DNA of 24,391 nucleotides from a virus. Each line of letters starts with the position of its first letter. Positions within the stretch are counted from its first letter, which is position 1. Location of the stretch: IMG/VR virus record IMGVR_UViG_3300046692_000116, positions 1 through 24,391 of that record; one strand, given 5' to 3'. A model generated the notes under the pieces. The model was given only the letters and a program-made list of their open reading frames with translations, did not search any database and was not told the DNA's origin. A program made the translations under genes and the position numbers. This document shows positions 5,851 to 20,893 of the stretch, in pieces.

Positions 5851-6045
5851 ATGACTCCCACCGAACTTGAGATGCGATGCCGCACATTGTTCGGCGCGAA
5901 CTGGCAAACGGCTTTCGCGCGCCACAGTGGAGTGGACGCGAGAACCGTTCGTAGATGGAAGGCTGGCACGACTGACGTGCCACCATGGGTTCCTGTGCTG
6001 CTTCACGCATGGGAGACGCTGCGGGCGCTTGGCAAGGACTGGTAG
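5851..6045 (+). CDS. Small HTH DNA-binding protein
   Basis: The 64-residue protein consists almost entirely of a helix-turn-helix: WQTAFARHSGVDARTVRRWKAGTTDVPPWV has the pattern of Cro/XRE-like phage and rhizobial regulators, with the recognition helix around RTVRRWK. The ATG at 5851 lies 2 bases after the upstream stop; a TTG at 5845 overlapping that stop is an alternative. The last 43 bases overlap, tail to tail, the end of the methyltransferase gene on the other strand. It probably regulates a nearby promoter, perhaps its own at 5570-5598. Confidence 0.7.
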   Translation: MTPTELEMRCRTLFGANWQTAFARHSGVDARTVRRWKAGTTDVPPWVPVLLHAWETLRALGKDW

Positions 6046-7598
6046 TTGTCGTTGGCAACAGTAGCAAGCGGCATGAGCGCAGCTATGCGCCGACCCAGCC
6101 ACGTAAACTTAGGCACGGCCCAACTATTGCCAAGTGCCTTGTAGCGTGGTCCATCGGCTGCCATGAGCCACCATTGCCCGTCGATCTTCTCCCACATGTC
6201 TTCCGGTCTGGTGCGCGTGATGCGGCGCGCCTTGTAACTGCGCATGGGGATGCGCGTATAGTTGTCGTCAAATCCTTGAAGGCGCTCACACTCCATAGGC
6301 GTAAGACGACGGACTGCTGAAGTGAGGACGTGTGGCTTATCACCACCGCCTTGGCTAGCTCGCAATGCTGTTGCGCCACCCATGAGGCGTACTTCATCAC
6401 GGCTGTTTTGAACAAAAGCGACAGCCGGCTGCATTGTTGTTTTTAGTGGCGGCGAAAACTCGTTGATCGGCATCCCCTGGGATGCCGATGCGTACCAATC
6501 AAATGCGACTATCGGGGCGCCGCGCCCCGATCCGTCTTCACTGGCATCATGGCCTTCGGCAGTAAGTGCGTGAGATATTTCGCCGGTTACGCAGACGGCA
6601 TTAGGACCTTTAGCCTTTATGGTCTGCGTGATTTCTTCTAAAACACCAAGGCCAGAACGTTCTCCTGGCGTGCCGTTTGCGCCTTCTCCAGATCTATCCA
6701 ATGCATCGCGGGCAATTGAATATGCTGTTCCTACAGCCACCATTGTCGTGGTTTCGTAGTCTTGCGAAGAGCCTTCGCGCGTTGCGTCGCAACGCGCGAT
6801 CTCAGGTGCATACACGGCCAGCGACTCGTGACTGTCCTGCTCACGCGCTCGAAGCGGGCCTATTCCTTCTCTCCAGTATCCATCGCCGCTACTTGCAAAG
6901 CCTTTTGCAGTTGCTCCGGCAACGTCTTTCCCCGCTTCTCGGCTCGGCGGAGGATGCCGGAACACGCTTTCGGGCTCAAAAAGAACCGCTGCGGGATCGG
7001 CCCCGTTTCCAAAATCTGCGACAACGAGCACACGCCTGCGTCGTTGGGCCACTCCGAAAAATTGGGCGTCCTTGACAGCCCACGCCGCCCGTCCTTTTGG
7101 TCCAGAGACCATACCGTGACGCGGCCATTTTCCTCTTGCCGGTGGTTCGATGGCGGCATCTGCGCCCACAAGTCCGGCGATGAAGCAGCCGAAGGCGTTG
7201 TCTTTGGTGCTGAGAACTCCGACGACGTTTTCCCAGACGACGTTCCGAAGTCCATTGCCATCTGCAAGCTCATGGGCCAGCCTCACGAATTCGAGTGAAA
7301 GATTGCCGCGCGCGTCGGCAAGTGATTGGCGAAGGCCGGCCACGCTGAACGCCTGGCAAGGCGTTCCACCGCATAGTATGTCGACGCGCCCTAATGTACG
7401 AACGTTGATCTTGGTGAAGTCGCCAAGGTTCGGTACGTCGGGATAGTGGTATGCCAGAACGGCTGATGGAAACTTTTCGATTTCCGAGAAGGCCACTGCC
7501 TGCCAGTTTAGTTCGCGCCAAGCGGCAGAAGCCGCTTCGATGCCGCTGCAAACCGAGAGGAAGCGCAGGCCAGGTTGGTTATCATTCGCGTGTTCCAT
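6003..7598 (-). CDS. C5 cytosine DNA methyltransferase
   Basis: All key motifs of C5-methyltransferases are present in the 531-residue protein: motif I FLSVCSGIEAAS (SAM binding, residues 13-24), motif IV GGTPCQAFS with catalytic Cys81, motif VI ENV (123-125), motif VIII QRRRR (185-189), a long target-recognition region of about 250 residues, motif IX RRLTPMECERLQGF, and motif X ALGNSWAVP. It would methylate cytosine in phage or host DNA; the target sequence cannot be read from sequence. I use the ATG at 7598, which overlaps the upstream stop (TGATG) and leads with MEHANDN; the longer form adds 18 residues inside the neighbouring gene. The C-terminal tail has a second NDN motif. No restriction enzyme lies nearby, so protection of phage DNA from host restriction is the likely role. 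Confidence 0.93.
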   Translation of the reverse strand: MEHANDNQPGLRFLSVCSGIEAASAAWRELNWQAVAFSEIEKFPSAVLAYHYPDVPNLGDFTKINVRTLGRVDILCGGTPCQAFSVAGLRQSLADARGNLSLEFVRLAHELADGNGLRNVVWENVVGVLSTKDNAFGCFIAGLVGADAAIEPPARGKWPRHGMVSGPKGRAAWAVKDAQFFGVAQRRRRVLVVADFGNGADPAAVLFEPESVFRHPPPSREAGKDVAGATAKGFASSGDGYWREGIGPLRAREQDSHESLAVYAPEIARCDATREGSSQDYETTTMVAVGTAYSIARDALDRSGEGANGTPGERSGLGVLEEITQTIKAKGPNAVCVTGEISHALTAEGHDASEDGSGRGAPIVAFDWYASASQGMPINEFSPPLKTTMQPAVAFVQNSRDEVRLMGGATALRASQGGGDKPHVLTSAVRRLTPMECERLQGFDDNYTRIPMRSYKARRITRTRPEDMWEKIDGQWWLMAADGPRYKALGNSWAVPKFTWLGRRIAALMPLATVANDNYQSLPSARSVSHA

Positions 7599-7981
7599 CA
7601 AAACGGCGCTTCCCTCAAAGCTTCCCGCACACCCTCTGCGCACCCTTGCCACGCCGCCTTGACCAGCATCAACTGCATGAGTTCGTCGAAATGCGCCAGT
7701 TCAGTCAGGCCGCCATTGGCTGCGATGAACTCGCCAACTCTCTCGACGCCCTTCTCGAGCGCCTTGACCTCATACAAACTAATCCTGTCCAACTTGGTTA
7801 GGTCTCCTGTTGCGACGATGCACGGTTTGCAGAGGTAGCCGGGGTCTTTATCTCCGGGTGTGCTGCGGCCAATGCCGAATGCTAGACACCCGCACGCCTT
7901 GCAAACAGTGGGGTTATGTTTCTCATCCACGGTCGGCGAGAATGGAATGATTGGCTTGCCTGTTGGTGGGAGCTTGGTCAT
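7598..7981 (-). CDS. Zinc-ribbon protein, DUF6511-like
   Basis: The 127-residue protein has a CKACGC pair and a YLCKPC pair about 25 residues apart, forming a probable zinc ribbon, followed by a helical half (YEVKALEKGVERVGEFI, then MLVKAAWQGCAEGVREALREAPF). The C-terminal pattern resembles the DUF6511 phage family, whose role is unknown. It overlaps its upstream neighbour by ATGA and its downstream neighbour by TGATG, so it is translated as part of the three-methyltransferase group and may assist or modulate them. Confidence 0.7.
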   Translation of the reverse strand: MTKLPPTGKPIIPFSPTVDEKHNPTVCKACGCLAFGIGRSTPGDKDPGYLCKPCIVATGDLTKLDRISLYEVKALEKGVERVGEFIAANGGLTELAHFDELMQLMLVKAAWQGCAEGVREALREAPF

Positions 7982-8811
7982 GCTGCATCACCAAAAAGCG
8001 AGAGTTGCGGCTGGCGGTTATCGTTTGCGGGAGCGGACACGGTTATTGCTGGCGCAACTATTGGTGTAGCCACGCACGCCTCTGTAAAGTCGACGCAGAC
8101 GATCTCGCACATCGGCGAAACACCTTTCCATGCATCTAGATAAAAAGATGTATCAACACCACAACCGGAATCGAAATGCAGGCCGGTTAGCTTTTGGAAC
8201 TTAACGGCTCTGCCTTCCTTCTGACGCTCGTAGTTCTGTCGGCCGCTATAGTTGAAGCCCGCAGACCCTTGCGGCACGATAAACGCGCCATAGTCAGCTA
8301 GGTGTGCGGCGATATCGATGACGTGAAACTCAAAATCCTTGCCGGTATAGCGCGGACTGTTGCGATCACGTCTGATGTTGCCAAATGGCGGATTGCTGAT
8401 CGCAGAATCGAAATGCCCCAGCCCCATCTCCAAAACGTCGAAAACATCGGCACAGATCCACTCTGCCTCTGGAAGCAGCTTTTGACCCACGGCCAAATAG
8501 TCTGGATTGCGCTCGATGCAGGTGATCTTGGGGCCGCCAGCCTTAAACCTGCTGCGCTGCCAAATGGCATATGATAGCATGCCAATACCGGCACACAGGT
8601 CGATGACGCGTCCTCCGCCGGCATCGATAGCGAAATCGAACGCCATATCGAACGGTGTGAAGAATGCGCCGGCTGCGCTGTTGATGTGCGTCGCGCCTTC
8701 ATGCCAGTTGCGATAGACGAACTCCTTGTCTTCCTCGGTTAGTGTTGGTTTGGTAAGGATGTCTAGCGCTTGGTTGTGGGCTCGCAGTTCTGGCTTCGTG
8801 AGTTTGGCCAT
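7978..8811 (-). CDS. N6-adenine-type DNA methyltransferase with clamp-binding tail
   Basis: The 277-residue protein has a SAM-binding motif I (IDLCAGIGMLS, residues 70-80), an acidic motif II (CIERNP) and the catalytic NPPF tetrapeptide (140-143) of amino-methyltransferases, most likely adenine-N6. The last residues are RQPQLSLFGDAA; QLSLF (269-273) matches the canonical bacterial beta-clamp-binding pentapeptide QL(S/D)LF. It is preceded by a flexible PANDN linker, so the tail is exposed and could tether the enzyme to replicating DNA. The window also encodes a beta clamp (14756-15814). It starts on the stop of the MT-A70 gene (TGATG). Confidence 0.88.
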   Translation of the reverse strand: MAKLTKPELRAHNQALDILTKPTLTEEDKEFVYRNWHEGATHINSAAGAFFTPFDMAFDFAIDAGGGRVIDLCAGIGMLSYAIWQRSRFKAGGPKITCIERNPDYLAVGQKLLPEAEWICADVFDVLEMGLGHFDSAISNPPFGNIRRDRNSPRYTGKDFEFHVIDIAAHLADYGAFIVPQGSAGFNYSGRQNYERQKEGRAVKFQKLTGLHFDSGCGVDTSFYLDAWKGVSPMCEIVCVDFTEACVATPIVAPAITVSAPANDNRQPQLSLFGDAA

Positions 8812-9383
8812 CAGGCAGCCCTCTCAAGTTGTAGCTGATTGTCATTGACCACCTGAAACTTGCCGACCTGATTGCCCCACGCAGACCATCCGGCCCACGC
8901 CTGACGCGCGAACAACTCGAGATACGGGCCACCTACCAGCTGCTCGATACGTCCATACTGTTCGTCTGGCTTGCGACTGTGTTCTCTCCTCGGCGCACGG
9001 ATAACTTGGCGTACGCCTTTCGACAGGCGCGGTGGTTTACCGCGCTTGAACAGGTGGCAGATCTCGACTTCTTGGCGGGTCCAATAGCCCATGCCCATGC
9101 GGCCCTTGTCCCAGACAAAGGCGATCGACACTGGCTTAAAACCCCACGCAGCCGCAACCTCGAATGCCGGCTGTTGGAGGTGGGAAACCGTCCACATGAA
9201 GAGCAAGCAGTCACGAGCTGCCACGTCTGCCACTGGCAGCGCCTTGATATCATTGAGTGACATGACGGCGTAAGGCTGGGCACCGCGTGCTGGAGCGACG
9301 TTCTGTTTGGAATAGGTGCGGAAGGACCACGGCGGATCTGCGAGAATCACGCCATATCTCCCCGCAGGTAGCGGCTCGGTCAT
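8811..9383 (-). CDS. MT-A70 family adenine methyltransferase
   Basis: The 190-residue protein has the MT-A70 hallmarks: ADPPWSF with the catalytic DPPW at residues 16-19, followed by LLFMWTV, a WGFKPVSIAFVWDK strand-helix and a C-terminal ELFARQAWAGWSAWGNQVG, the usual end of phage MT-A70 enzymes. These methylate adenine N6 in DNA. It is the first gene of the methyltransferase cluster; its leader carries CACCAC, then GAGGAGAC 3 bases before the ATG, and a 7-bp hairpin upstream. The short tail VVNDNQLQLERAA has the NDN motif but only a degenerate clamp-like peptide. Confidence 0.92.
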   Translation of the reverse strand: MTEPLPAGRYGVILADPPWSFRTYSKQNVAPARGAQPYAVMSLNDIKALPVADVAARDCLLFMWTVSHLQQPAFEVAAAWGFKPVSIAFVWDKGRMGMGYWTRQEVEICHLFKRGKPPRLSKGVRQVIRAPRREHSRKPDEQYGRIEQLVGGPYLELFARQAWAGWSAWGNQVGKFQVVNDNQLQLERAA

Positions 9384-10674: not shown

Positions 10675-12432
10675 CTAGAATGGTATGTCGTCATCCATCT
10701 GGCGTTCCCAATCGGCCATGCCTTTGCGATTGTCGTTTGCTGCTGGTGGTGTGTTGTCGTTGGGGGCGCCAACGCGGTGAGCCGCAATGTCAGGATATTT
10801 TGGGTTTCTCGAATAGTCTAATTGCACCTCTTCCGTGCTGAACAACTCATGTTGCCGCTCAAGCCACTCGATTGGCGATTTTGGGAATGGCCGCTTGCCC
10901 CCGTGCGCCAACCACCAGCGATCAGCTTTTGATTTTGGATAGCCGGTATGCGCACAGCAATGCCACTCACTGACCGACTTCATGCCGACAAGGTATGTGC
11001 ATTTCACTGAATCTGGCTTTCCGTCCTTGCCTGGATGATGGTAGAACGTCCTGCTCTTGACCTCATGCCAAGGCTTCTCTGTAGACAGTACCGGCGCGTC
11101 GGCGGCCTGCGCCGTGATCTTCTCTTCCTCATTAGGCGGGAAGACATAGCCGCAGCACTGGCATTTCATGATGGATATGGCGATCATCTCGCCGCACCCA
11201 TAGTTTCCGTTGACGTCCTTTGTTGCGCCAGTTGTTCCCTCTTGCGGGCATAGCTTTTTGGGTTGCTCTCCTAAACCGCTACCGGGCTCTTTCGGGCGAA
11301 TCTGATCGATAGGCCCATGATACGCCAGGTTCTTGCCGTGGTCGGCAACGAGGCAATCAGTCTTGCCTGCGCAGTTGCGCGTACCGCGTCCCAAGATCTG
11401 CACTAACTTGCCGGGTGACTTCGTCGATAGGATCAACGAAATAAAATCGACGAACGGAAAGTTTGTGCCGGTGGTGATCATCGATACAGACGAAATCGCC
11501 CAATACTTGCCAGATCTGAAGCCCTCGAAAATCTCTTTTGTCTGGTGCGAATTGTCGCTGGTAAGGACGGCGCACGTCCTTCCGTGCCGACGGATAGCCT
11601 CTGCAACATGGTTGGCGTTGTCTTTGCTAGTGCTGAAGAATAGACCGGCCTTGCGTCCTTCTGAGAGAACCATGTCCTCAGCTACGGCCGCCTCAATGAT
11701 GCGCTCCGCAGCTTCCGATACCTGGCCAGGAATGTATTCTCCGCCACGAGTGCCAATGCCCTTAAGGTCTATCTTGCTGGTGGTGCGCTGGCTGGTGAGG
11801 TTGGTGAGGTAGCCTTTCTCGATCAACTCGCCAAGGCCGATTTCATAGACGACATCGTCGAACAACTTGAACTTCTGCGGAACGCCAATCTCAACCAGTT
11901 CTGGTGGCGTGTCGTCATCGTCGAGAGCATCGGTCAGCCTACCAGAATCCATGCGGTAGTCGGTGGCGGTCGTGCCGCAAGTCCGGCTATCTGGGTTTTT
12001 CTCGCGAACCTCTTTGAAGAATTTGCCGTATTGCGTATTCGTGTTTCTCGATATGGCGTGAGCTTCGTCGACAATGACAAGGTCGATTTCGCCGATCAAA
12101 TCGACCTTGTTCCACACCGATTGAATGCCGCAGAACAAGACCTGCGCATTGGCGTCCCGTCGGTTCAGACCGGCCGAATAGATGCCTGCCGGCGCGAATG
12201 GCAACAGGCCGATGAACTCTTTGAAATTTTGCTCCACGAGGGGTGCACTGTGAGTGACATTGAGGATGCGCATTTCCGGATAGTCGGCAAGCAACTCCTC
12301 GATAAGTTTGGCGATAACCAGAGCCTTGCCCGCTCCGGTCGGGAGGACGATAAGGCCGTTGCCGCCGCCGTTGCGCCAATATTCATACAGCGCGTCAAGA
12401 GATTCGCGCTGATAATATCGTAGCTCAAGCAT
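10675..12432 (-). CDS. SF2 DEAH-box helicase with SSB-like C-terminal tail
   Basis: The 585-residue protein carries SF2 helicase motifs: Q-like ELRYYQ at the start, Walker A LPTGAGK (30-36), DEAH (122-125), the TAT motif in GTTATDYR, and QILGRGTRN (motif VI). A cysteine-rich segment (CPQE, CGEM, CQCCGYVF) after the helicase core probably binds zinc. The last residues are RQMDDDIPF, identical to the acidic tip by which bacterial SSB recruits partner proteins, preceded by a flexible linker with two NDN motifs. It likely remodels DNA at phage forks or recombination sites. The ATG at 12432 overlaps the upstream stop (TGATG); a TTG one codon earlier is possible. Confidence 0.9.
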   Translation of the reverse strand: MLELRYYQRESLDALYEYWRNGGGNGLIVLPTGAGKALVIAKLIEELLADYPEMRILNVTHSAPLVEQNFKEFIGLLPFAPAGIYSAGLNRRDANAQVLFCGIQSVWNKVDLIGEIDLVIVDEAHAISRNTNTQYGKFFKEVREKNPDSRTCGTTATDYRMDSGRLTDALDDDDTPPELVEIGVPQKFKLFDDVVYEIGLGELIEKGYLTNLTSQRTTSKIDLKGIGTRGGEYIPGQVSEAAERIIEAAVAEDMVLSEGRKAGLFFSTSKDNANHVAEAIRRHGRTCAVLTSDNSHQTKEIFEGFRSGKYWAISSVSMITTGTNFPFVDFISLILSTKSPGKLVQILGRGTRNCAGKTDCLVADHGKNLAYHGPIDQIRPKEPGSGLGEQPKKLCPQEGTTGATKDVNGNYGCGEMIAISIMKCQCCGYVFPPNEEEKITAQAADAPVLSTEKPWHEVKSRTFYHHPGKDGKPDSVKCTYLVGMKSVSEWHCCAHTGYPKSKADRWWLAHGGKRPFPKSPIEWLERQHELFSTEEVQLDYSRNPKYPDIAAHRVGAPNDNTPPAANDNRKGMADWERQMDDDIPF

Positions 12433-12605
12433 CAAGCCGCCTCGCTGCGTGCCTGAGTGGCCGCATCGATCTGCGCCAATCTAATCGCGTTCTCGCGCAC
12501 GACGATCCAGCCAGCAGCGCGCAGTGCGGCTAGCTGCTCGACGGTGATGATGTCGCGCGGGTGTTTGGCGCCGGTGGCGACAACGGCCCGTACAGCCACA
12601 CTCAT
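12432..12605 (-). CDS. Hypothetical protein, 57 aa
   Basis: A 57-residue reading frame fills the gap between the sigma-like and helicase genes exactly, with ATGA overlap at its start and TGATG overlap at its end. This tight coupling is the main evidence that it is real. The sequence has an Ala/Val-rich start and a TVEQLAALRAAGWIVV segment that could form a small helix-turn-helix or other helical fold. I recognise no family. Confidence 0.7.
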   Translation of the reverse strand: MSVAVRAVVATGAKHPRDIITVEQLAALRAAGWIVVRENAIRLAQIDAATQARSEAA

Positions 12606-14755: not shown

Positions 14756-15814
14756 CTAGACTCGCATCGGCATCAACACAGCCAGCAACTCCGCCGCCTT
14801 ATCCGACGTGAATATGGCCGGCGATCCACCATCACCCAGCGCCAACCGAATATCGCCAGTAGGGAAGATGCCGATCAGTTCGTTCAGGTATGTCGCGTTG
14901 AAACCAATATCGATCGGCTCCCCGCCATAGGTGACAATGATTTCATCTGTAGCGCTGCCCTGATCGGGATTGTTAACCTCAAGCTTCGCTGCGCCATCAG
15001 CGAACGACAGTTTTACGGCGCGACCACGCTCAGATGAAACAACAGCAACACGGCCGGCGGCCTGGCGCATGTCATCGCTGCCAAAGACGATATTCTTGTC
15101 GTTCTGCGTGGGAATGACGCGCTGATAGTCTGGAAACGTGCCGTCAATCAGTTTGCTGGTTAGGGAGAAGTCGCCGGCATCGATGCGGATTTTCTGGCTG
15201 GAAACGGATACAGACACGGTGCCTTTCGGTAGAAGACCAACCGTCTTGCGCGGAACGATGACGCCCTCGAAAGCCGGTACTTCCGGTCCACGATTGCGCG
15301 CCAGACGGTGGCCGTCAGTAGCGACCGCCACGACGTTGCCATCGATGACGTGCAGGAAGATGCCGTTAAGATAGTAACGCGTCTCCTCCGTCGAGATCGC
15401 AAACGAAACAGGCGCAAACAGGCTGGAGAGGTCGATATCGAAGCTTGCCGTATACGACCCGCCGTCCAACGACGGAAAGTCATCAGCGGCTAGCGCGCCA
15501 AGCGCAAAGCGGCTGCGGCCAGATGTGACGATCAACTGTCCTTTGTCCGTGGACAGAGTGATTTCGCCGCCTGCCTTCTTGGCGATGTCGGCAAGCAGCT
15601 TGGCGTTGACACAGACTGCGCCAGGCTTTGAAACCGATGCGGCGACAGTGTCCGTGGCGACGATGTCCAAATCGGTGCCGGTGACGCGCAGGCCGTCGGC
15701 GCTTGCGGTCAGCAGGACGTTGGATAGGATGGGAATAGTATTGCGCGCCTCGACGACGCGGCCGACGTTGGTGATAACGCGCGCCAAGTCGACACGCTGA
15801 ATGGTGAGCTTCAT
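14756..15814 (-). CDS. dnaN: DNA polymerase III beta sliding clamp
   Basis: The 352-residue protein matches the full three-domain bacterial clamp: it begins MKLTIQRVDLARVI, contains PILSNVLLTA, VATDGHRLA (domain 2), FPDYQRVIP (domain 3 entry) and ends VLMPMRV, the conserved clamp C-terminus. It is close to the usual length (about 370), so it is likely functional as a ring. Phage-encoded clamps are not common; this one would let the phage run or hijack Pol III and recruit proteins with clamp-binding peptides such as the 7978-8811 methyltransferase. It heads a unit: a 9-bp hairpin, CACCAC and GAGGAGAC precede its ATG. Confidence 0.95.
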   Translation of the reverse strand: MKLTIQRVDLARVITNVGRVVEARNTIPILSNVLLTASADGLRVTGTDLDIVATDTVAASVSKPGAVCVNAKLLADIAKKAGGEITLSTDKGQLIVTSGRSRFALGALAADDFPSLDGGSYTASFDIDLSSLFAPVSFAISTEETRYYLNGIFLHVIDGNVVAVATDGHRLARNRGPEVPAFEGVIVPRKTVGLLPKGTVSVSVSSQKIRIDAGDFSLTSKLIDGTFPDYQRVIPTQNDKNIVFGSDDMRQAAGRVAVVSSERGRAVKLSFADGAAKLEVNNPDQGSATDEIIVTYGGEPIDIGFNATYLNELIGIFPTGDIRLALGDGGSPAIFTSDKAAELLAVLMPMRV

Positions 15815-16494: not shown

Positions 16495-17108
16495 CACTTG
16501 CTACCCCAAGGCCGCCGGCCCGTAGCCGCAGTAGCCGCAGAAGCGGCCTGCCGTTGCGCTGGTGCGGGCTTGTTGTCATTGGCCGCAGCAGGCGCCTCAT
16601 TGCGCTTCTTGCCTTGCGTGCCGTCACCAATGATGCCTATTTCCGGAACAGGCTCCTTGGCAGCGTCGTCGGTGTAGAAGAACCGCTCGATCTGGTTTTT
16701 GTCCTTGTAGAACGTCCCATCCGGCTTCTTGTTGCCGATCTGAATGCCGACCTCGGCGACGAACGACTTGAACAGCAAATCGTCTGTGTCGGTGTCTGCG
16801 GTGATCTCCTCGCCGACGGCTCGACCGAATCTATCGAACATCGGCTTGCCGTATTTGTAGGCGCCGTGCTGGTAGCCATCGGAATGGATGATGGTCCAGT
16901 ATGCCCAGAACTTGCGGCCCTTGAGTTCTTCAGGCGCGATTACCTCGAACGTGATTTCAGCTTGGAAACCCTTGGTGTCTGTTGTTGCCGGAAGGTTGAT
17001 AGCCTCTGCCTGAAGCTGGGCATACATGTGTGGCAGGATACCGCCGCCACCGCCCTGCTTTTCGGTGTTCTCGAAATCCGCTTCGTAGTTATTCCCGATC
17101 TTAGCCAA
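16494..17108 (-). CDS. DUF669-like ssDNA-binding/recombination protein, TTG start
   Basis: The 204-residue protein resembles DUF669, a phage family that binds single-stranded DNA and works with Sak-type recombinases: ITFEVIAPEELKGRKFWAYWTI and FDRFGRAVGEEI match its GRK-type core, and the C-terminal 60 residues form an Ala/Lys-rich flexible tail with AAANDNKP. The start is a TTG: AAGGAGAC, preceded by CACCAC, stands 3 bases before TTG-GCT-AAG, and the frame to an upstream ATG (17171) would put 21 extra residues across the leader and into the neighbour's end. Unlike typical SSB, it lacks an acidic DDDIPF tip; that tip is on the helicase instead. Confidence 0.78.
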   Translation of the reverse strand: MAKIGNNYEADFENTEKQGGGGGILPHMYAQLQAEAINLPATTDTKGFQAEITFEVIAPEELKGRKFWAYWTIIHSDGYQHGAYKYGKPMFDRFGRAVGEEITADTDTDDLLFKSFVAEVGIQIGNKKPDGTFYKDKNQIERFFYTDDAAKEPVPEIGIIGDGTQGKKRNEAPAAANDNKPAPAQRQAASAATAATGRRPWGSK

Positions 17109-20552: not shown

Positions 20553-20893
20553 GCCGCCACCCGCAAGGCATATTCCGTCACAACGGCGCCAGCCCGCATA
20601 TCTTCGTCGACATGGTTGTCATTGGCAGCCACGCGCACCACGCTTACGGGCATTCGTCCGGATGTCGTCGAACAGCCGCCATTATGTGCGACCAAACGAG
20701 TAACGCGATCTGGATTGTTGTCGTTGGCCGCTCTGGGAGCGCCGCGCGGAATGCCCGCGCCGTATGATCTGTTCAGGCGCTTGTAGATCGCGGAAGGTTT
20801 CATGTTCCATAGTTTGGCGATCTGGGCGATACTCACCCCTTCCGCCTTCATGGCATACATATCGGCCGTAGCCGCATCACTTCTGAGCTGCAT
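20549..20893 (-). CDS. HTH protein, first gene of the leftward operon
   Basis: The 114-residue protein has a helix-turn-helix of resolvase/homeodomain-like type near residues 13-42: YAMKAEGVSIAQIAKLWNMKPSAIYKRLNR. The remainder is a flexible tail with two NDN motifs (RAANDNN, VAANDNH). As the first gene after the leftward promoter, it is well placed for a role in early regulation or replication control. The ATG at 20893 follows GAGGAGAC by 3 bases, with CACCAC further upstream. Confidence 0.75.
   Translation of the reverse strand: MQLRSDAATADMYAMKAEGVSIAQIAKLWNMKPSAIYKRLNRSYGAGIPRGAPRAANDNNPDRVTRLVAHNGGCSTTSGRMPVSVVRVAANDNHVDEDMRAGAVVTEYALRVAA

Follow-up and report, generated by a model that had tools for sequence, protein, structure and literature searches.

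In eukaryotes, a short linear motif tethers the DNA methyltransferase Dnmt1 to the sliding clamp PCNA, and newly made DNA is thereby methylated (PMC9690074). The accepted consensus for binding to the bacterial beta clamp is QL(S/D)LF, which is found at the C-terminus, on a flexible end, in the polymerases Pol II, Pol IV, and Pol III alpha, and E. coli Pol III alpha also has an internal motif, IGQADMFGV (PMC11139829). Methyltransferases have zero occurrences in that review of beta-clamp ligands. The C-termini of T4 gp43, gp55, and gp33 are interchangeable gp45-binding tails, and the linker of gp55 is variable (PMC2988020). Alphaproteobacterial phages carry small NPPF/Y adenine methyltransferases of the PhiLM21_p027 type, which are specific for GANTC and lie next to replication genes; imitation of host marks has been proposed for alphaproteobacterial phage methyltransferases (PMC5537653). 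Phage DNA methyltransferases of phrog_3820 are present in RB43, RB49, phiM12, KP15, and other phages. The enzyme family, the clamp motif, and a methyltransferase on a clamp in eukaryotes are already known separately. In the open literature searched, we found no link between a beta clamp and a methyltransferase in bacteria or phages, and neither the phage combination described here, nor its breadth, nor the apparent change of clamp type.

The DNA analyzed here (the window) is an entire virus record of 24,391 bases and is a phage replication region. It encodes a phrog_3820 enzyme, named the NPPF methyltransferase after its catalytic motif, within a close-packed gene cluster, and a beta sliding clamp. 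The genes of interest are as follows.

7978 to 8811, minus strand: NPPF SAM-dependent methyltransferase, 277 amino acids, ATG start, annotated by phrog_3820 as 'DNA methyltransferase'.
8811 to 9383, minus strand: MT-A70 family methyltransferase (PF05063, E 1e-22), directly upstream of the NPPF gene.
6003 to 7652, minus strand: C5 cytosine DNA methyltransferase (PF00145, E 2.3e-30), in the same cluster as the NPPF gene.
14756 to 15814, minus strand: phage beta sliding clamp, 352 amino acids (phrog_947, E 6e-92).

The stop codon of the MT-A70 gene and the start codon of the NPPF gene share one base (TGATG). Downstream of the NPPF gene is a small protein whose start lies inside the stop codon of the NPPF gene, followed by the C5 methyltransferase. 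The initial annotation had reported a full beta clamp in the window, and the clamp is indeed complete, with all three domains matched (PF00712, PF02767, and PF02768).

The window enzyme resembles Dnmt1 in combining a methyltransferase with a short clamp-binding motif, as proposed here from the sequence. However, Dnmt1 is an unrelated, large C5 enzyme with a maintenance role, and PCNA is an unrelated clamp. The polymerases named above have the same motif in the same kind of position, but are polymerases. The phrog_3820 enzymes share the core family of the window enzyme, but the profile match stops short of the tail, the family description does not include the clamp motif, and the T4-like members have other tails or none. 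The PhiLM21_p027 type is similar in size, motif IV, and genomic setting, but belongs to a different family; identity with that GANTC methyltransferase was rejected, since the shared stretch is motif IV only.

The features of the NPPF methyltransferase, all on the minus strand, are listed from the N-terminus.

8653 to 8670: GAFFTP, residues 48-53, motif-X-like; FFTP is invariant in 44 of 44 aligned members.
8581 to 8601: DLCAGIG, residues 71-77, SAM-binding motif I; invariant in the 44-member alignment.
8383 to 8394: NPPF, residues 140-143, catalytic motif IV; NP is invariant and PF is present in at least 90%.
7981 to 8085: C-terminal tail, residues 243-277, a variable linker plus the clamp motif; predicted to be disordered.
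8017 to 8028: ANDN, residues 262-265, within the linker; this peptide recurs in proteins of the clade and also starts the host tmRNA tag.
7993 to 8007: QLSLF, residues 269-273, a putative beta-clamp-binding motif, assigned from sequence and conservation.

The phrog_3820 profile matched the NPPF methyltransferase with an E value of 1.6e-102, covering residues 1-246 only, and the Pfam MTS match was weak and under the cut-off (E 2e-4). The protein has the gamma-class order, in which an FFTP element is followed by motif I (DxCxGxG) and motif IV (NPP[FYW]) on a Rossmann fold; we take GAFFTP to be the equivalent of motif X (compare the HsdM-type G-x-F-F-T-P). The AlphaFold2 model had pLDDT values above 90 over most of the core. 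A fold search with this model returned lmo1582 (Z 18.5), METTL5 (17.9), M.PacII (16.6), CamA (15.9), HsdM (15.8), and M.TaqI (15.3), as well as the rRNA enzyme KsgA, so that the matches were adenine-type amino-methyltransferases and their fold relatives, including both DNA and rRNA enzymes. In its predicted fold, the NPPF core resembles the gamma-class N6-adenine methyltransferases. Among the best family matches by sequence were PrmC and RsmC, which are protein and rRNA methyltransferases, although these matches were weak. The N6_Mtase profile (PF02384) matched 3 of 44 members, and an Alw26I-type profile matched some members; together with the position of FFTP before motif I, these matches favor DNA as the substrate. 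From family, fold, and motif, we infer methylation of DNA at adenine N6. M.TaqI aligned only at residues 21-213, its catalytic domain, and no target-recognition domain was seen within the 277-residue chain. A partner subunit, such as the adjacent MT-A70 protein, may be the source of target recognition.

Genes of the NPPF family adjoin other DNA methyltransferases in several phages, including MT-A70, N6_N4, Dam, C5, and GANTC-type enzymes, and the slot beside the gene holds differing DNA methyltransferases depending on the phage (L029, L069, L083, L017, L121, L027, L153, L032, and L033). In L029, L069, and L083 the neighbor is a homologue of GANTC-specific PhiLM21_p027. Motif IV of amino-methyltransferases was found in 9 of 114 neighbors of NPPF-family genes compared to 1.8% of other ORFs. 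In Dickeya phage JA13 (L262, 401-1549), the NPPF-family enzyme is fused to an N6_N4_Mtase domain; in the Dickeya jumbo phages, this fused domain replaces the tail.

The NPPF methyltransferase ends in ...PANDNRQPQLSLFGDAA, in which QLSLF is followed by GDAA and the stop codon. The initial annotation had placed QLSLF near the C-terminus on a flexible linker, and both points were borne out: the motif lies four residues from the end, and the last 30 or so residues had pLDDT values of 57-63 and no secondary structure in the AlphaFold2 model, from which we take the tail to be flexible.

Homologues were drawn from IMG/VR contigs, phage records, and one-per-species genomes, giving 145 distinct full-length proteins that were reduced to 84 by clustering at 80% identity. 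Absence of the motif from close homologues had been named by the initial annotation as the result that would refute its proposal. We looked for such absence and found the motif kept: 33 of the 84 homologues have a strict clamp motif among their last 22 residues, compared to 0.12 expected when each tail was shuffled. A relaxed motif was present in 45 of 84 (0.77 expected from tail shuffles). Within the same loci, 36 of 117 family members (31%) carried the strict motif within their 22 C-terminal residues compared to 6 of 3012 other proteins (0.2%), and at least 1 of those 6 was itself an N6_Mtase protein (L161). Chance origin of the motif was rejected by both the shuffles and the comparison with other proteins of the same loci.

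Linkers differed between homologues in sequence and in length, from very short to more than 40 residues, while Q-x-[S/D/A]-L-[F/L] was retained. The variants at the tail ends were QLSLF, QLDLF, QASLF, QADLF, QIDMF, QTDLF, QLTLF, and QLALL; QADLF, which many relatives have, closely resembles the internal motif of Pol III alpha. The codons of the motif change synonymously, with all six codons used for Leu4 and both for Phe5, indicating that selection acts on the peptide. Coding constraint from an overlapping gene was rejected, as the tail DNA and the next gene overlap by 4 bases only (7978-7981). QLSLF bears every sequence hallmark of a sliding-clamp-binding motif. The tail was absent from Firmicutes and Bacteroidetes members, phiM12, Ochrobactrum phage OC, AS-zj-like phages, and some others; the existence of tail-less members indicates that the core reaction can proceed without the tail. 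A clamp motif common to the methyltransferases of this phage was also considered and rejected, since the C5 enzyme and the MT-A70 protein lack one; the C-terminus of the MT-A70 protein, QLQLERAA, was not kept as a motif.

Several other C-termini were observed during this survey. A metagenomic subclade (L102, L103, and L106) has a conserved C-terminal LDFGDW, another candidate short binding motif. Clamp-like ends were seen in the N6_Mtase-domain protein of L161 (260-amino acid ORF, EQMTLF) and in an unassigned protein of L144 (249-amino acid ORF, EQFSLFAA). Several related metagenome contigs (L020-L024 and L028) share a common frameshift in the methyltransferase gene that leaves the tail in another frame.

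The presence of a clamp was determined by searching whole records and the DNA around the gene. In the close clade of the window, nearly all members had a beta clamp together with the methyltransferase. In contrast, the clamp search found none in the sister clade, which includes the complete circular Rhizobium phage N28_2, yet the sister clade retains QLSLF or QLDLF, and the N28_2 protein ends in QLSLFGDAA, exactly like the window protein. Likewise, no clamp was found near the motif-bearing gene in prophages of Rhizobium, Ensifer, Roseibium, Microvirga, Pelagibius, Pandoraea, Burkholderia, and Pseudomonas. In a 102-protein tree, there was no association between tail and clamp (median p = 1), although with three supported independent pairs this test has little power; the clamp-less sister clade is the stronger argument.

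The peptide pocket of the window clamp has canonical residues and was identical to that of the Rhizobium sp. ASV8 host clamp at 26 of 26 checked positions, which were chosen by reference to the known E. coli pocket. For this comparison, the clamps of L219 and L224 were taken as host dnaN on the basis of contig and length, and those of L207 and L208 are probably prophage copies. Given this identity, the tail should bind either clamp. Since the same tail occurs in clamp-less phages and prophages and the phage pocket is like that of the host, the tail most likely arose for binding the host clamp and can probably serve with host or phage clamp. The initial annotation had described a clamp-binding tail in a phage with its own clamp. 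The hallmarks of the motif support the first part of that description, but the idea that the phage clamp accounts for the tail was rejected by the clamp-less sister clade, and the independent-pairs test gave it no support. One difference did accompany the clamp: clamp-bearing relatives mostly have A or P at position 2 of the motif (QASLF or QADLF; for example, L001, L014, L052, and L068), whereas the clamp-less sister clade has L, M, or F there. This difference could reflect the phage clamp, but it is confounded with phylogeny.

The replisome clamp of T4-like phages is gp45, not a beta clamp. RB49-type members of the family end in SGTLSDLFDI, and that of KFS-EC ends in SVALSDLFDI. The RB49 polymerase gp43 ends in VASLTDLFDI, so that TLSDLFDI of the methyltransferase and SLTDLFDI of gp43 are identical at 6 of 8 positions; gp55 of RB49 has PSLDQF near its end. 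Among 114 ORFs in 26 kb of RB49, such an ending was found in the polymerase only, and the methyltransferase, encoded elsewhere, also has it. The RB49 relative thus ends like the gp45-binding tails of T4, while the window protein has a beta-type motif instead. By sequence, it looks like the beta-type tail has been replaced by a gp45-type tail in the RB49-like phages, which represent one phage genus only, and the type of tail may depend on which clamp serves in replication of the phage genome. The tails of RB43, KP15, Phynn, and POP12 showed no resemblance to the ends of RB43 gp43, gp55, or gp33, and a gp45-type assignment of the RB43 tails was rejected for this dissimilarity. Tails of the RB43 group end in NLFTFTIE, DLFTFTIE, NFTFRIE, or EFTFKIE, and RB43-type members (L037, L228-L232, L259, L263, L264, and L269) have a conserved C-terminus, xxFTFxIE, that fits neither clamp type.

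The linker of the window protein contains a second signal. The tmRNA tags of the hosts of its relatives are ANDNYAEARLAA and ANDNKAQGYALAA, both of which start with ANDN. We surveyed (A)NDN in the window and 16 related loci. NDN occurred 175 times in 384 clade proteins compared to 6.9 expected, and about one-third of clade proteins carry (A)NDN. The permutations NND and DNN were at expectation in the clade, and the codons for NDN vary. NDN was not clearly in excess in host proteins (4 occurrences, 3.9 expected) or in the clamp-less sister phages (4 occurrences, 2.0 expected). The window has 13 sites, which include 2239-2250, 2714-2725, 6045-6056, 7578-7589, 8017-8028, 10729-10761, 16572-16583, 20615-20626, and 20717-20728. 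Possible roles for (A)NDN are a degron mimic, an SspB decoy, or a phage-specific binding motif. A terminal AA was present in 12 of the 25 window proteins, 103 of 384 clade proteins (expected, 4.7), 35 of 243 sister-clade proteins (expected, 2.6), and 10 of 197 proteins from host stretches (expected, 2.6); the frequent AA ends are possibly ClpXP-type ends. Because ANDN is lacking from the sister-clade tails that have the clamp motif, the two are separate signals, and both the clamp motif and the ANDN/AA signal may act in the tail of the window clade.

Taken together, we think it fairly probable that the NPPF methyltransferase is a clamp-tethered DNA adenine methyltransferase that docks on the host or phage beta clamp and methylates nascent DNA. 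The enzyme would consist of a compact core of the N6-adenine type (residues 1 to approximately 242), a disordered linker of approximately 25 residues, and QLSLF. The tail would dock on a beta clamp, of host or phage, left on newly made duplex, occupying its hydrophobic peptide pocket, and this docking would hold the enzyme on DNA just behind the fork, where nascent DNA would be methylated. The tether would thereby supply the DNA targeting that M.TaqI-like relatives get from a separate recognition domain, and the benefit could lie in escaping restriction or in mimicking host methylation. Clamp binding, fork-coupled methylation, and an anti-restriction benefit are what we infer from the sequences. 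We propose more tentatively, and with some doubt, that a clamp tether replaces the target-recognition domain across phrog_3820, with the tail rewired to beta, of host or phage, in most proteobacterial phages and prophages and to gp45 in RB49-like phages.

Four other explanations were considered. The methyltransferase could compete with host partners for the host clamp as part of a takeover of replication, with any coupling of methylation being secondary. Phage proteins that bind host clamps are known, and in clamp-less phages with the tail the host clamp would be the sole target. However, a pure inhibitor would not need the methyltransferase core, which is intact with invariant SAM and catalytic motifs; moreover, the tail in RB49-like phages appears to be directed at the phage's own gp45 rather than at the host clamp, and the window-clade phage itself makes the same kind of clamp. 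We consider such interference unlikely. Similarly improbable, in our judgment, is a modified rRNA or a translation or replication protein as the product of the enzyme, with the tail vestigial or at the replisome for another reason. The weak PrmC and RsmC matches and the place of METTL5, the human rRNA m6A enzyme, among the top folds agree with a substrate other than DNA, but FFTP precedes motif I as in HsdM-type DNA enzymes, some members match PF02384 and Alw26I-type profiles, the family includes an N6_N4_Mtase fusion and adjoins DNA methyltransferases (including PhiLM21_p027 homologues), and the sliding-clamp tail itself points to DNA.

The tail could also be a degradation tag in which ANDN...AA imitates the ssrA tag for turnover by SspB/ClpXP and QLSLF is an incidental spacer. 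The likeness of PANDNRQPQLSLFGDAA to the host tmRNA tags, the ending LAANDNDLFSAVAA of one relative, and the strong enrichment of ANDN and terminal AA across the window phage clade all fit this explanation. Its chance of being correct nevertheless appears small to us, as the clamp-less sister clade has QLSLF without ANDN, beta- and gamma-proteobacterial members have QLSLF or QLDLF without ANDN and do not always have a terminal AA, ANDN in one-third of clade proteins is not specific to this tail, and a degron can coexist with a clamp signal. Finally, the tail and the phage clamp could be a dedicated pair that couples methylation exclusively to the phage's own fork. Co-occurrence of both genes in nearly the whole window clade and the A or P at position 2 in many clamp-bearing relatives, compared to L in clamp-less ones, would agree with a dedicated pair. 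We regard it as very improbable, however, given a sister clade that keeps the motif without a clamp, the identical pockets of phage and host clamps at the 26 positions, and the lack of a tail-clamp association on the tree (few pairs); the window protein, moreover, has the generic QLSLF, and the difference at position 2 follows phylogeny as well.

If a clamp-tethered adenine methyltransferase is the correct reading, it would account for how a phage could get its new DNA modified ahead of attack by host nucleases and explain how a small enzyme without a recognition domain finds DNA. It would also give a function to a common uncharacterized phage family with at least 275 phage records and many prophages, and RB49-type phages on laboratory E. 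coli should then need a gp45-type tail.

A C-terminal motif of another kind was observed in a second protein of the window. The DUF669/SSB-like protein of the window has no tip like that of bacterial SSB (DDDIPF), while its counterpart in L023 has VDDDIPF. The ResIII-type helicase of the window (10675-12435, minus strand) ends in MDDDIPF (10678-10698), and SSB-like tips following variable linkers were present in 33 of 41 helicase homologues compared to 3 of 3088 other proteins.
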